Translations under genes and position numbers: made by a program
Assembly: GCA_947427325.1 (NCBI GenBank)
Contig: CANEHP010000003.1
Coordinates: forward strand, 1 to 32,704
Direction: 5' to 3'
DNA length: 32,704 bases
Source: an uncultured Clostridia bacterium
GTDB lineage: Bacteria; Bacillota; Clostridia; Oscillospirales; Ruminococcaceae
In this document: one piece after another, positions 5,397 through 24,440 of the stretch
Layout: every line of letters starts with the position of its first letter
Numbering within the stretch: position 1 is the stretch's first letter
The notes under the pieces: model-generated
Databases searched by the model: none
The model's input: the letters and a program-made list of their open reading frames with translations, nothing else
What the model was told of the DNA's origin: nothing

Positions 5397-5681
5397 TAAC
5401 CTTCATCTCCAAAGAGATGAAAGTCACAACTTCCACGGTACCACTCTAATTGACATTGCCGTAAAGCAACGCCCACTCATAGACATCAAACAATGCCTGC
5501 CCCTGTAACGTGAGGACACGTTCCGTTCTCCGAATGAAAAAAGCTTAGGCTGATTATTCACTCATTGACGGAAGGCTCAAAGGTGATTTAGAAAGAAGTT
5601 CCGCCGCTGTCTTACACCAACCGACAGCTCTCTGTGGGCTTCCGTACTTTCCGCTCCTTGTCACAGCCTTTTTTATATTAC
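5397..5681 (-). ncRNA. T-box riboswitch leader upstream of cimA; specifier proposed as ATC (Ile)
   Basis: On the minus strand: AGAGTGGTACCGTGG T-box, GACAAGGAGCGGAAAGTACGG, CAGAGAGCTG, GGTTGGTG and AAATCACCTTTGAGC stem I/specifier landmarks, followed by a terminator hairpin TTCATCTC-tttg-GAGATGAA and a T-rich tail. Confidence 0.92.
5402..5421 (-). terminator. Intrinsic terminator of the T-box leader
   Basis: TTCATCTC(5402-5409)/GAGATGAA(5414-5421), followed on the minus strand by GGTTATTTTTATATT. Confidence 0.8.
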
Positions 5682-5870: not shown

Positions 5871-5946
5871 TGGGCTATAGCCAAGCGGTAAGGCAACGGA
5901 CTTTGACTCCGTCATTCCGGTGGTTCAAATCCACCTAGCCCAACCA
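5871..5946 (+). tRNA. tRNA-Gln (anticodon TTG), CCA encoded
   Basis: Acceptor TGGGCTA/TAGCCCA, anticodon arm ACGGA-CTTTGAC-TCCGT, T arm GGTGG-TTCAAAT-CCACC, 3' A-CCA. Confidence 0.95.
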
Positions 5947-12910: not shown

Positions 12911-14137
12911 TCAGCTTACTAAAAATGCGGCGTGGGGGAGGTCGAAGGAGTCGGTTGCTATAAAAGAACCGACAGTCCATGTATCAGCAACCTTACTGTT
13001 AAGTATAATTTTTGCGGCATGAGTAAATGCCAGGGCTAAATCTCTGTCGTTCCAATTCTCCGGCAAAAAGGCGGGAACACAGATTTTGAGCATATTGTAA
13101 AAAACAACGAGAACAAAATAATTTTTAAATATTCCGTCTAAAGGAGATTGGCACAGGATTTGATTAACCAGCAGATTTTCCAAAATATACGGGCGCTCCG
13201 CTTCTATACTTCCGAACAGCTCTTGATTGTTTAAATATTTGTCTTTGCTGTAAACAAAATCAATTTTGTCATTGTTTTTTTCTGTTTTGACGCCCAAATT
13301 TTGCCTTACCTCCGAAAACAGCTGTTTTATAAAGCTTAAGCCTTCAGCTTCTTCAGCCCAATCCGCCATTCTTACAAGAATATCAATAGATTTGAGAGCG
13401 GCGCTGTCATCGGTTTGAGGAGCTTTCAGGGAATCGGCAATTTTCCGGCACGTTTCATGGTCAAGCATCATTTTGCAAAGACTTGCAATTTTTTCATCAT
13501 TTCCTTCATCTATGTATTCATCGGCCTTTTTACTGAAATATCCTAATATGAGCAGTCTTTCCCGAACAGAAAATCTGCGGTTTTGAAGAATATCTATTTC
13601 CGCATTTTTTACGATCCAAAAATAAGGATATCCTTTCCAGCTCTTTGGAACATTATAATTGGACATACGCCCCTTGTTTATATATTTGTCCTTTCCGTCA
13701 TACTCTTCCTCAAGAATTTCAAGACCCTCGGGATGATTCATAAGTATTTCGGTTACGTGAGGGCATGTAATATTAAGGGTGAAGATCATTGCGCTGTCTT
13801 CCACAACAGCATGAAGTCGGGGAAAGGTATTGCATACATAACCCATTTTTTCCTCCCCAAGCTCTTTTTGAAGCCGACAAAGTCCATCGTCGCACAGCAT
13901 AGGGCAGTATCCGCCGTCTCCGAATTTTATTGCCGCATATTGCAGATCGTTTGCGTTGTTTATTCTGACAAAGGCGTTAGCGATTATTTTTCTTAATTCG
14001 GGACTGCAGCGGGCGTGCTTTATATTAAGATAATCTCTTTTGCCGAAGAGTATACCCCAGTGCTGACAGCAGGTTTCGGGACACTGCGAGCCTATACAGT
14101 GAAACTCATCATAATACTTGAACTTAACTACCTTCAT
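12911..14137 (-). CDS. fliB: FliB-family flagellin lysine-N-methylase
   Basis: N-terminal Cys-rich FKYYDEFHCIGSQCPETCCQHWGILF, CPMLCDDGLCRLQKELGEEKMGYVCNTFPR; genomic adjacency to flagellin. Confidence 0.85.
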   Translation of the reverse strand: MKVVKFKYYDEFHCIGSQCPETCCQHWGILFGKRDYLNIKHARCSPELRKIIANAFVRINNANDLQYAAIKFGDGGYCPMLCDDGLCRLQKELGEEKMGYVCNTFPRLHAVVEDSAMIFTLNITCPHVTEILMNHPEGLEILEEEYDGKDKYINKGRMSNYNVPKSWKGYPYFWIVKNAEIDILQNRRFSVRERLLILGYFSKKADEYIDEGNDEKIASLCKMMLDHETCRKIADSLKAPQTDDSAALKSIDILVRMADWAEEAEGLSFIKQLFSEVRQNLGVKTEKNNDKIDFVYSKDKYLNNQELFGSIEAERPYILENLLVNQILCQSPLDGIFKNYFVLVVFYNMLKICVPAFLPENWNDRDLALAFTHAAKIILNSKVADTWTVGSFIATDSFDLPHAAFLVS

Positions 14138-14424: not shown

Positions 14425-16062
14425 TTAGCCGAGGAGCTGGAGAACTGCCTGAGGCTGCTGATTAGCCTGAGCCAGCATAGCCTGAGAAGCCTGCTGCAAG
14501 ATGTTGAACTTGGTGTAGTTAATCATCTCGGTAGCCATATCTGTATCCCTGATCTGAGATTCAGCGTTTGTTAAGTTCTCGTTAGTAGTGGTTAAGTTGT
14601 TTACAGTGTACTCAAGACGGTTCTGGAGAGCACCGAGGTCAGCTCTCTGCAAGGAAACCTTCTTAACTGCTGCGTCAACTGAGGTGATAGCCTTGTTAGC
14701 TGCTTCTCTGGTGGAAACGTCTATGTTTGCAACACCCAATGAATCTGCGCCCATATCGTCAACATTAAGAGCAACTCTCTGATCCTTAACGCCGTTAGCG
14801 CCGATCTGGAATACTAAGCCTTCGCCGTTGCTGCCTGTGAAGTTCTTACCAAGACCTAAGCCTTCGGTTACATCTGCTGCGCCAATGGCATCAACTTTAT
14901 TGAAGTAAATATGACCGTTGTTAGCTCCGTCAGGATTCTTAGCGTCGGTCAATTTAACCTCATAATCATATCCTGCCTTAGCCAAAAGGTTTTCAATATC
15001 CTTTTCGGAATAGTCAACGCCTGTTGACAGGTGCAATGTAACCGCTGCGCCGCTTGTGCCTATAACGGGAGCTGTATCGGTAACAACCTCTTCCTTGCCG
15101 GCTGCTCTGTCAAACGAAATAGCAACGCTTGCAACAAGAGATTCGTTAAGCTTAGAATCACCGTAAGAGTTAGCTGTAAGGGTGATAGTATCGGAAGAAC
15201 CAACGCCGCCGTTTGTGCCGTCCGCTACGTTAGTCGATGCGTCAATTTCAATGGTTCCGCGAGTGCCTGCTACGGTTGCAGTTGTGGTGGCTGCTGCTGC
15301 TGTGATAACGCCATATTCACTCTTAAAAGTAATATCACCAAAAGGAGCGGTCATACCTGCGTCCTTGGGAACGGTTGCGTTCTTGATTAAGTCGTTGATC
15401 TCTTCATCAGTATAGGATTTATTAGCAACCAGGTTAACAGTAACCTTAAGTCCGGCTTTATCCCAAACAGCATTCTCTCCGCCTGCTCCGGAAGCTGAGT
15501 TCGTTGTAAACGCAATCTGCATTCCCTTAACGGAAGATGTGGTGGAAATGCGTCCGCCGCCGATAGCAGCAACCTTTTCGTTCATTCCGTAAAGAGCGCC
15601 GTAGTTATTGGTGTTTCCGCCTGCGCCCGAAAGAGAACCGTCAAGCAGCTGCATTCCGTTGTACTCGGTAGCTGTGGAAATTCTGTCGATTTCGCTCTTA
15701 AGAGCGTCAACTTCCTTCTGGATAGCCTCACGGTCTGTATCATTCTGGTAAGTACCATTAGCGGACTGTACAGCAAGTTCTCTCATTCTCTGGAGAATGG
15801 AGTGAGTTTCGTTCAAGCCGCCTTCAGCAGTCTGGATAAGAGAAATACCATCGTTAGCGTTTCTTGTAGCCTGAGCAAGACCACGGATCTGAGATCTCAT
15901 TTTTTCGGAGATAGCCAAGCCTGCAGCGTTGTCGCCTGCACGGTTAATCTGATAACCGGAGCTGAGCTTTTCGGTAGCCTTCTTAAGACCGGCTACGTTT
16001 GTGTTCATCTTGTTGTTCGCATTGAGAGCGGACATATTATGTTGTACTACTAATCCTGCCAT
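14425..16062 (-). CDS. hag: Flagellin, complete copy (545 aa)
   Basis: N-term VVQHNMSALNANNKMNTNVAGLKKATEKLSSGYQINRAGDNAAGLAISEKMRSQIRGL; C-term LTNAESQIRDTDMATEMINYTKFNILQQASQAMLAQANQQPQAVLQLLG; RBS GGAGG. Confidence 0.97.
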   Translation of the reverse strand: MAGLVVQHNMSALNANNKMNTNVAGLKKATEKLSSGYQINRAGDNAAGLAISEKMRSQIRGLAQATRNANDGISLIQTAEGGLNETHSILQRMRELAVQSANGTYQNDTDREAIQKEVDALKSEIDRISTATEYNGMQLLDGSLSGAGGNTNNYGALYGMNEKVAAIGGGRISTTSSVKGMQIAFTTNSASGAGGENAVWDKAGLKVTVNLVANKSYTDEEINDLIKNATVPKDAGMTAPFGDITFKSEYGVITAAAATTTATVAGTRGTIEIDASTNVADGTNGGVGSSDTITLTANSYGDSKLNESLVASVAISFDRAAGKEEVVTDTAPVIGTSGAAVTLHLSTGVDYSEKDIENLLAKAGYDYEVKLTDAKNPDGANNGHIYFNKVDAIGAADVTEGLGLGKNFTGSNGEGLVFQIGANGVKDQRVALNVDDMGADSLGVANIDVSTREAANKAITSVDAAVKKVSLQRADLGALQNRLEYTVNNLTTTNENLTNAESQIRDTDMATEMINYTKFNILQQASQAMLAQANQQPQAVLQLLG

Positions 16063-16201: not shown

Positions 16202-16228
16202 ATATCGGCGGTGACGAAAAAAACTTTA
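16202..16228 (-). promoter_or_regulatory. sigma-28 (sigma-D) promoter for the complete flagellin
   Basis: Minus strand TAAA-15 nt-GCCGATAT, a perfect match to the sigma-28 consensus. Confidence 0.92.
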
Positions 16229-16342: not shown

Positions 16343-16371
16343 TTGACAAAAGCGGTAAAGCCGTGTATAAT
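16343..16371 (+). promoter_or_regulatory. Consensus sigma-A promoter driving the putative antitoxin RNA
   Basis: TTGACA-17 nt-TATAAT. Confidence 0.85.
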
Positions 16372-16377
16372 ATAAAT

Positions 16378-16461
16378 AAAGAGGGCGATAGGCGTGTCGC
16401 TCCCGATTTGGTTATGAAATAACCGCCTACGGTCGTGAAACGTGAAGGCGGTTATTTTTTA
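16378..16461 (+). ncRNA. Putative type I antitoxin RNA (about 80 nt)
   Basis: Starts just after the consensus promoter and ends at hairpin AAATAACCGCC(16417-16427)/GGCGGTTATTT(16447-16457) plus T run; overlaps the 3' end and terminator of the convergent toxin ORF. Confidence 0.72.
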
Positions 16462-16556
16462 TTGCTCTTGAAAAAATTCAGAGCAAGGAGCAGTACAGTT
16501 ACAACATCACACAAAAGCATGAACAGCTGTATTAACTCGGAAAGAGTTATGTACAT
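16452..16556 (-). CDS. Putative Fst/holin-like type I toxin peptide (34 aa)
   Basis: MYITLSELIQLFMLLCDVVTVLLLALNFFKSNKK*, preceded by AGGGGTGAGG. Hydrophobic TM plus basic tail. The stop codon lies within the bidirectional terminator. Below the ORF-track length cutoff. Confidence 0.78.
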   Translation of the reverse strand: MYITLSELIQLFMLLCDVVTVLLLALNFFKSNKK

Positions 16557-16720
16557 ATCCTCACCCCTGCGTAAAATAACCGCCCGCTTTCACAAAAACA
16601 GTGAAAGCGGTTATTTTTTTGCAGTCGGTTAAAATGAAGCAATTCCTGTCTAATATGGCGTAAAGCAAAACAATTTTGTTTGCCAAATTCTTCCATTAGC
16701 CACGCAAAGCCGCATTATAA

Positions 16721-18124
16721 AGGCAAAGTTCCAATAATGGTACTTATCAGAACGACACTGACCGTGAGGCTATTCAGCTTGAGGTTGACGCTCTTAAGTC
16801 TGAAATTGACAGAATTTCCACTGCTACCGAGTATAATGGTATGCAGTTGTTGGATGGTTCGCTCAGCGGAGCAGGCGGTGCTGTTACAGAGTATGGTCCT
16901 AAGTATGGCGTTGTTGACACTGCAACAACAAATTTCACAGGTGCAATTATTACTTCTGACGTTGCAGGTGTTACATTGAAAACTACAGCTAATGCAACCG
17001 AAGGCGGCGAAAGCGCAACATGGGATGCTGATGGCAGAGAACTTACCTTTAATTTAGTTGCAAACAAAACTTATTCTCAAGCAGATATTGATAAGCTTAT
17101 CAGAAACGCTGATACTCTTAAGGCAGACGGCGACAAGCCTAATATTACCGTTGCTCTTAAAAACGGTATAATGACAATGGATGACGGTACTATCACAGCC
17201 GCCACATCAGCAACCGCTGCCGGTGTAAGAGCCACAACCACAAGTCAATCTATTGTTGGAACCACTGCTCCTTTAAGTGCAGCGATTTCCGGATATGGCG
17301 ATACAATTAAGCTTACATCTAATAGTTATGGCGTTGATGTGAGAAATATTGTCATTGCAACAGACGCAGAAGCAGGCAAGGAAAGTGTTGAAACTTTGCA
17401 GTCTGATAATACTGGGTACAAAGACGGTACTTTTGTACTTCACTTGTCAACAGGTAAAGAATATTCTAAAAAGGATATTGAAGCTTTATTGGCAAAAGAA
17501 GGACTTGATTACTCAGTAGAAATTACTGATTCTAACGCACCTGACGGCGATGTTTCTTTGAAGTTTGACCAAAAACAAGCAACGGCAAAATTTACTGCCA
17601 GCGCTACTGCTGGTACTGCCGGTACTTTTGCCACCGCTGCAGCTGGAACTGGCGCAATAGTTTTAGCATTAGGCGGTGGTACCTTGGGCGTAGGCGTAGG
17701 CAAGGAATTTTCTCCTACAACCGGTGAAGGTTTGACCTTCCAAATCGGTGCTAACGGCGTTGAAGACCAGAGAGTAACTCTTAACATTGACAATATGGGC
17801 GCAGACGCTCTCGGAGTAGCTTCCGCAGACGTTTCCACAAGAGACGCCGCTAACGAAGCTATCGATGCAGTTGACGTAGCAATTAAAAAGGTTTCCATGC
17901 AGCGTGCAGGACTCGGTGCTCTCCAGAACCGTCTCGAGTACACAGTTAACAACCTGACTACAACCAACGAGAACTTAACAAACGCTGAATCTCAGATCAG
18001 AGACACAGACATGGCTACAGAGATGATCAACTACACCAAGTTCAACATCCTGCAACAGGCTTCTCAGGCTATGCTGGCTCAGGCTAATCAGCAACCTCAG
18101 GCAGTTCTCCAGCTCCTTGGCTAA
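16721..18124 (+). pseudogene. 5'-truncated flagellin cassette (lacks about 100 N-terminal residues)
   Basis: Homology starts at QSSNNGTYQNDTDREAIQLEVDALKSEIDRISTATEYNGMQLLDGSLSGAGG, preceded by in-frame TAA; continues through a variable middle to an intact flagellin C-terminus. No flagellin N-terminus or flagellar promoter upstream. ATG at 16841 is internal and has no RBS. Confidence 0.85.
17825..18124 (+). repeat. Left arm of the 300-bp inverted repeat (partner 18392-18691)
   Basis: By-eye alignment shows 3 mismatches over 300 bp; the terminal 189 bp (17936-18124 vs 18392-18580) appear identical. Confidence 0.88.
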
Positions 18125-18224
18125 TTTATTTTCGGCGCAAAGCTTATAATTCTTTCTTATTATCTTATTACAATTCCTACAAATAATAACACACGGCTTT
18201 GGCAAAAAGTTAATAACTTATGTT

Positions 18225-18260: not shown

Positions 18261-18391
18261 GCTGTCTTGTTTTGTGCTTGCCGTCTTTATAAGGCAAAGG
18301 GCGTTAACGCATACAAACAAAACCCCCGCCGAAGCGGGGGAAATGTATTTGTAGGAATTGTAATAAGTACAAAAAGCTTTTGCTGAATATA

Positions 18392-18691
18392 TTAGCCAAG
18401 GAGCTGGAGAACTGCCTGAGGTTGCTGATTAGCCTGAGCCAGCATAGCCTGAGAAGCCTGTTGCAGGATGTTGAACTTGGTGTAGTTGATCATCTCTGTA
18501 GCCATGTCTGTGTCTCTGATCTGAGATTCAGCGTTTGTTAAGTTCTCGTTGGTTGTAGTCAGGTTGTTAACTGTGTACTCAAGACGGTTTTGGAGAGCAC
18601 CGAGTCCTGCACGCTGCATGGAAACCTTTTTAATTGCTGCGTCAACTGCATCGATAGCTTCGTTAGCGGCGTCTCTTGTGGAAACGTCTGC
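18392..18691 (-). repeat. Right arm of the 300-bp inverted repeat (partner 17825-18124)
   Basis: See left arm. Confidence 0.88.
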
Positions 18692-19150
18692 ATTAGCTAC
18701 GCCGAGAGCGGAAGAACTCATATCGTCAACTGTCAAAGTAACTCTCTGGTCTTCAACACCGTTAGCTCCTATTTGGAAGGTCAAGCCGGTACCTGTGGAA
18801 GTTACTTGTTCTTTTCCAACGCCTGCACCATCAGTAATACTTACGTCTGCCGTTCCTGCAACATTAAAGTAAACATGACCATCGTTATCACCGTCAGTAG
18901 CCTTGGAGTCGGTTAACTTAACATCAAAATCATAGCCCTCTTTAGCAAGAATGAGTTCAATATCCTTTTCGCTGTAATCAACACCGGTAGCCAAGTTAAG
19001 GGTGAGTTCAGTAGGTTTTGCGGCGTTTGCAACTGTTACAGATTCTTTACCCTTGTCAACTCCCGAAGTGTTAATTGTAATCTTTGTAGCACCGTGAGTA
19101 TCGGCAGCCAATCCATAGCTATTAGCGGTAAATGTACCATTATTTTCCAA
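18392..19150 (-). pseudogene. 5'-truncated flagellin cassette (variable middle plus C-terminus only)
   Basis: ENNGTFTANSYG...GVDYSEKDIELILAKEGYDFDVKLTDSKATDGDNDGHVYFN...flagellin C-terminus; no N-terminal D0/D1 coding sequence upstream; ORF opens at a TTG. Confidence 0.85.
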
Positions 19151-24283: not shown

Positions 24284-24440
24284 TATTGCTCCCCCAATTA
24301 AAGTTTGCCACAGGATGCAGGCGCAAATGAAAAATATCAAGGAAAAAAGCACAGCAATATGCCATATTGCGAGCATTTTTGACGCAGAGATTTTTTATTC
24401 GCATCAAGTATTGTGGCAAGATTTAATTGGGGGAGCAATA
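24284..24440. mobile_element. MITE-like element bounded by 29-bp terminal inverted repeats
   Basis: TATTGCTCCCCCAATTAAAgTTTGCCACA (24284-24312) vs reverse complement of 24412-24440 TATTGCTCCCCCAATTAAAtCTTGCCACA; 27/29 identical. Confidence 0.65.

Follow-up and report, generated by a model that had tools for sequence, protein, structure and literature searches.

A multi-copy family of type I toxin-antitoxin-like modules in gut Oscillospiraceae, with a truncated copy beside a flagellin gene

A gene for a tiny membrane peptide and an opposing small RNA gene form a putative type I toxin-antitoxin-like module in the window, the 32,704-nt stretch of DNA from an uncultured Clostridia bacterium analyzed here. 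We assign a probability of about 0.78 to the reading that this module belongs to a multi-copy chromosomal family related to Hol-Tox and has lost its toxin promoter and leader. The predicted gene pair as such is real, conserved, widespread in gut bacteria and undescribed so far, the family being found in numerous species of a single gut-associated Oscillospiraceae genus. According to a 2019 review, experimental evidence on type I modules in the class came from C. difficile alone (PMC6563280); should the toxins prove active, that class would gain a large set of such modules, defined by sequence. Naturally truncated copies, that of the window included, moreover offer a test of lone antitoxins as antidotes.

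Table 1. Positions of module elements and neighboring flagellin features within the window
Feature	Position	Strand	Basis or remark
Antitoxin-RNA promoter TTGACA-N17-TATAAT, 12/12	16343-16371	+	Same element perfect in 52/65 homologous modules
Antitoxin RNA of about 85 nt (predicted, as are its ends), a 5' hairpin (GGGCGAUAGGCGUGUCGCUCCC) being followed by the terminator hairpin	16378-16463 (approx.)	+	Folding; sibling copies on contig C143 81% identical
Bidirectional terminator stem AAATAACCGCC...GGCGGTTATTT, common to both RNAs, takes in toxin stop codon	16417-16457	both	Repeat search, folding
Toxin-like 34-aa hydrophobic membrane peptide ORF, MYITLSELIQLFMLLCDVVTVLLLALNFFKSNKK	16452-16556	-	ORF translation, homologues, purifying selection
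Shine-Dalgarno AGGGGTGAGG of the 34-aa ORF	16568-16559	-	Read directly from sequence
Terminator-like hairpin private to the window copy, holds second AAATAACCGCC	about 16573-16619	–	Occupies place of canonical toxin leader/promoter; absent from sibling
Sigma-28-type promoter TAAA-N15-GCCGATAT upstream of fliC	16202-16228	-	Read directly from sequence
Flagellin lysine-N-methylase FliB-like ORF adjoining fliC	12911-14137	-	Judged by eye

Layout, conservation and distribution of the module

The first-pass annotation had described a hydrophobic minus-strand ORF with a good ribosome-binding site, its stop codon lying inside a bidirectional terminator, and a perfect plus-strand promoter; all of these were recovered (Table 1), the Shine-Dalgarno (SD) sequence being strong and the terminator stem overlapping the toxin stop. 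The short plus-strand RNA said to run into the same terminator is likewise predicted from sequence and folding, with a folding energy of -31.4 kcal/mol (z = -3.3). A gene for a small hydrophobic peptide, faced by an antisense RNA gene that has a promoter to itself, is a type I trait, and at the sequence level the module shows it. Comparison of the window ORF with the two copies nearest to it gives a dN of 0.13-0.14 and a dS of 0.9-2.0, and it is therefore the peptide sequence that selection keeps; close homologues of the 34-aa peptide are under strong purifying selection (dN/dS about 0.1).

A second copy in the same genome, its peptide 85% identical (tblastn), lies on contig C143 as part of a tandem array; the contig ends within the second module of that array. 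A profile search of 71 same-genus genomes returned matches in 36 at E <= 0.1, about 21 of these at E < 1e-4. A single genome holds as many as nine copies, and head-to-tail arrays are frequent; in one of them (G014:C1:291061-292498; L092, L192), five toxin modules follow each other at a spacing of about 330 nt. From fetched loci of same-genus genomes we took 65 distinct modules that share one layout, commonly ordered as toxin promoter, leader, SD, ORF, stop/terminator and opposing promoter. The canonical leader motif reads AGGAAACC...GGCGGTYA...CUCCC, and the stop codon is fused to, or placed just ahead of, a CCGCC...GGCGGTTA-type terminator, the arrangement TAA-CCGCC...GGCGGTTA recurring among the modules. 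On the antitoxin strand the promoter is free of mismatches in 52 modules and has one mismatch in 13, vs 2-6 mismatches in shuffled flanks, a control that, like the other comparisons with shuffled sequence made here, takes no account of how closely the modules are related. Because so many promoters are perfect and shuffled flanks never have fewer than two mismatches, the layout is not due to chance. The toxin-strand promoter has 0-1 mismatch in 38 of 64 modules.

Named records with the canonical leader belong to Oscillospiraceae, Ruminiclostridium and uncultured Clostridia MAGs; one is labelled Bacteroides sp. and is probably mislabelled. Most of the inspected copies are placed in gaps between ordinary genes, and in one case an insertion-sequence-like ORF pair lies next to the module (functions judged by eye). 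Phage and plasmid records (tblastn) and viral contigs (leader pattern) gave no match, a search in which a 34-aa query has little power. A separate element of this genome is a 149-nt palindromic MITE-like repeat with GCTCCCCCAATTAAA ends, found at 24288-24436 of the window and 5352-5500 of C143; seven full-length copies (at least 91%) plus fragments occur in the genome, one copy sitting within the toxin leader of a C143 module.

Predicted silencing and the truncated window copy

In the mechanism that we propose, a canonical module would give rise to a short mRNA for a single-helix membrane peptide of ~33 aa with a Lys/Arg tail, the leader hiding the SD, whereas an opposing RNA of ~80 nt would start from the near-perfect promoter and end in the terminator of the toxin mRNA. 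As the terminator is shared, the 3' ends of the two RNAs match each other as complements for about 50 nt, and it is most likely this terminator that mediates pairing between antitoxin RNA and toxin mRNA. Kissing of the terminator loops would pass into a duplex along this stretch, followed by silencing or decay of the toxin mRNA, such that the opposing RNA probably silences the peptide. Folding supports the hiding of the SD in canonical copies, with a mean predicted unpaired probability of 0.10 vs 0.37 with shuffled leaders and lower values in 59 of 64 modules; in the window copy hiding is weak (0.25 vs 0.35 shuffled).

The conserved 5' CUCCC of the antitoxin might help by contacting the SD. 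C[CT]CC is found in the antitoxin 5' part of 62/65 modules (10% expected), and its predicted pairing with the SD region is stronger, at -16.7 vs -12.6 kcal/mol, than that of shuffled antitoxin. Covariation between antitoxin and SD was rejected, cognate pairs performing no better than non-cognate ones (p = 0.34), and the CUCCC is largely paired within the antitoxin's own 5' hairpin, which is why we treat an anti-SD action in trans only as a hypothesis. An extended version, which would make the antitoxin design an unusual one, is rather doubtful: toxin mRNA and antitoxin RNA would begin with homologous 5' elements (AGGAAACC..GAUAG(G/A)CGGUU..CUCCC), inverted around the ORF, and the antitoxin's copy of the leader anti-SD strand would complete silencing in trans once the terminator loops have kissed.

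DNA homology between the window copy and its C143 sibling (L139) covers window positions 16363-16567 and ends at the SD, and the segment 16569-16733 is not repeated in full anywhere else in the genome. The canonical toxin promoter, the GGCGGTYA leader and the CUCCC anti-SD strand are missing from the window copy, and the best toxin-strand promoter within 200 nt of its ORF has three mismatches, which is chance level. Judged by this comparison, the window copy is one that has lost the usual toxin front end, promoter and leader being lost or replaced by other sequence. Its antitoxin gene looks intact, its toxin gene is without a recognizable promoter, and the copy is probably expressed as antitoxin only, unless read-through alone gives rise to its toxin. 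One might go further and regard it as a solitary antitoxin, whose RNA neutralizes in trans the toxins of related modules such as the C143 tandem array. Its truncated toxin side and an intact antitoxin gene 81% identical to those of C143 would suit this role, but terminator loops differ between copies and Clostridioides difficile type I antitoxins are usually specific to the cognate toxin (PMC6563280), so that we hold it to be rather doubtful.

The hairpin found in place of the canonical leader is similar to the terminator of the module itself (92% over 24 nt) and could be the remnant of a lost neighboring module. Within it lies the second AAATAACCGCC copy, the two direct repeats being present at 16417-16427 and 16574-16584 as previously described. 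They had been interpreted as a pairing contact between antisense RNA and toxin mRNA near the ribosome-binding site, and as a conserved contact this could not be upheld: the repeat is absent from the sibling, and leader-antitoxin pairing across the family is at the level of shuffled sequences (mean z -0.5 in 64 modules), with the window copy as the sole strong outlier (z -5.8). Given its position in a non-canonical hairpin, the second repeat makes the 11-nt pairing with the antitoxin private to the window copy; it is outside the conserved module and already paired in cis. Conservation across homologous loci holds for the ORF and not for the repeats. Consequently, it is unlikely that the window carries a fully working two-gene toxin-antitoxin module in which the repeat provides a second, Fst-like contact close to the ribosome-binding site. 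Intact ORF, strong SD and intact antitoxin promoter speak for such a module, as does the unusually stable leader-antitoxin duplex (-64 kcal/mol), but no toxin promoter above chance is found within 200-400 nt, and the repeat shows the cis-pairing and the lack of conservation described above. Loss of the toxin promoter and leader remains our preferred reading of the window copy.

Two further roles for these sequences were considered and rejected. Across the family, the leader GGCGGTTA pairs with the terminator arm of the antitoxin no better than with shuffled or non-cognate partners. As to a generic terminator of the genome, 23 GGCGGTTATTT sites were found, and the inspected ones outside modules almost all have no hairpin arm; the hairpin is therefore not a common terminator of this genome.

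Relation to Hol-Tox, Fst and other type I systems

Pfam and NCBIfam yielded no model match for the window peptide, and a comparison with Hol_Tox (PF16935, putative holin-like toxin) gave none at E <= 10. A profile of 49 members nevertheless recovered the same layout from further genera across the order and class, and three of ten scanned order- and class-level peptides pass the curated Hol_Tox cut-off of 23.3 bits, scoring 24.5, 33.3 and 37.1 bits. Within the genus, Hol_Tox weakly matches 7 of 49 members (best E 7.7e-4), and a match above cut-off occurs in only 1 of 71 genomes. Peptides of both families have about 30-34 aa, a T.S(D/E)LIQ-like N-terminus, one hydrophobic helix and a basic tail. 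The Hol-Tox link put forward by the first-pass annotation stands by way of the distant order- and class-level homologues, but not for the window peptide itself. Conserved layout, purifying selection and distant copies above the Hol_Tox cut-off together argue that the family is type I toxin-antitoxin-like and related to Hol-Tox by intermediates. No NCBIfam or Rfam model covers the family, and Pfam Hol_Tox does so only at its margins; Rfam identities for the modules were rejected as chance-level matches at gathering and relaxed thresholds, BsrG among them (20.2 bits vs 55). That the peptide is a small membrane regulator instead of a toxin, its level set by the opposing RNA, would fit inspected copies mostly placed in intergenic gaps of ordinary genes and not clearly on mobile elements, but is improbable given a layout, peptide features and a Hol-Tox link that resemble type I toxins.

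For the type I toxin-antitoxin-like family, a close comparison in organization is par/Fst of pAD1 and the Fst/Ldr family, with which it shares predicted convergent RNAs, a bidirectional terminator, a putative toxin of about 33 aa and, in canonical copies, an SD predicted to be hidden in the leader. Convergent promoters with a bidirectional terminator, an Fst/Ldr trait, occur in the family, the antitoxin promoter alone being recognizable in the window copy. The Fst/Ldr signature consists of a Trp between the transmembrane helix and the charged C-terminus and a P/D/S/TXXXG motif, Fst-pAD1 itself being without the Trp (PMC7472228). Unlike these toxins, the present peptides have no conserved Trp before the tail and no PXXXG, and their tail is basic vs an acidic one in Fst-pAD1 (Fst features: PMC7472228). 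Conserved direct repeats are absent as well, and a U-turn (YUNR), a motif missing from the toxin terminator loop of some Fst homologues (PMC7472228), is found in 18/29 parsed toxin terminator loops vs 16.1 expected. With the Trp/PXXXG signature and conserved direct repeats absent and the U-turn close to its expected frequency, Fst membership of the family is not supported. For the window peptide, membership as first suggested had to be abandoned, with no Trp after the transmembrane helix, no PXXXG motif and no Fst match; of the Fst (par) logic there remain the convergent two-RNA layout, the shared terminator and the basic-tailed membrane peptide, but not repeat-mediated pairing near the ribosome-binding site.

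In B. subtilis, the TxpA/RatA and BsrG/SR4 pairs overlap at their 3' ends. In these systems and in C. difficile modules of the CD2517.1-RCd8 type, too, the toxin is a small membrane protein, and the antitoxin RNA is convergent with the toxin gene and overlaps it, whereas the overlap in the present family is short and confined to the terminator. C. difficile type I toxins have 34-53 aa and many lie in prophages or next to CRISPR arrays (PMC6563280); the likeness to them is one of description.

The flagellin setting

A stabilizing role of the module at the flagellin locus had been proposed. Flagellins were searched in the 71 genus genomes and 30 flagellin loci were fetched with about 1.5 kb flanks; a module is present at two of them only, those of the window and of G033. 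In the closest flagellin locus (G069, N-terminus 98% identical), the 218 nt upstream of fliC are shared at 85%, and this region holds no module. We saw no supporting evidence for stabilization, and the position beside the flagellin gene appears incidental. In G033 (G033:C14:20695-23257; L169), two divergent toxin modules lie close to the flagellin gene, which may be chance.

Several other features of the region were recorded. ORFs similar to the FliB-like one of the window (Table 1) adjoin the flagellin gene in G069 and G014, as judged by eye. Between fliC and a headless flagellin cassette, a 144-nt inverted repeat (81% identical) occupies 15617-15760 and 16735-16878; were this repeat to recombine, the fliC 5' end would be flipped together with the fliC promoter and the toxin-antitoxin copy. 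Two cassettes are linked by another inverted pair (17729-18185 and 18346-18787, 91%). Farther away, a tRNA is located at 5871-5943 (+), and a T-box leader (Rfam RF00230, 102 bits) at 5410-5673 (-) lies just upstream of leucine-type biosynthesis genes.
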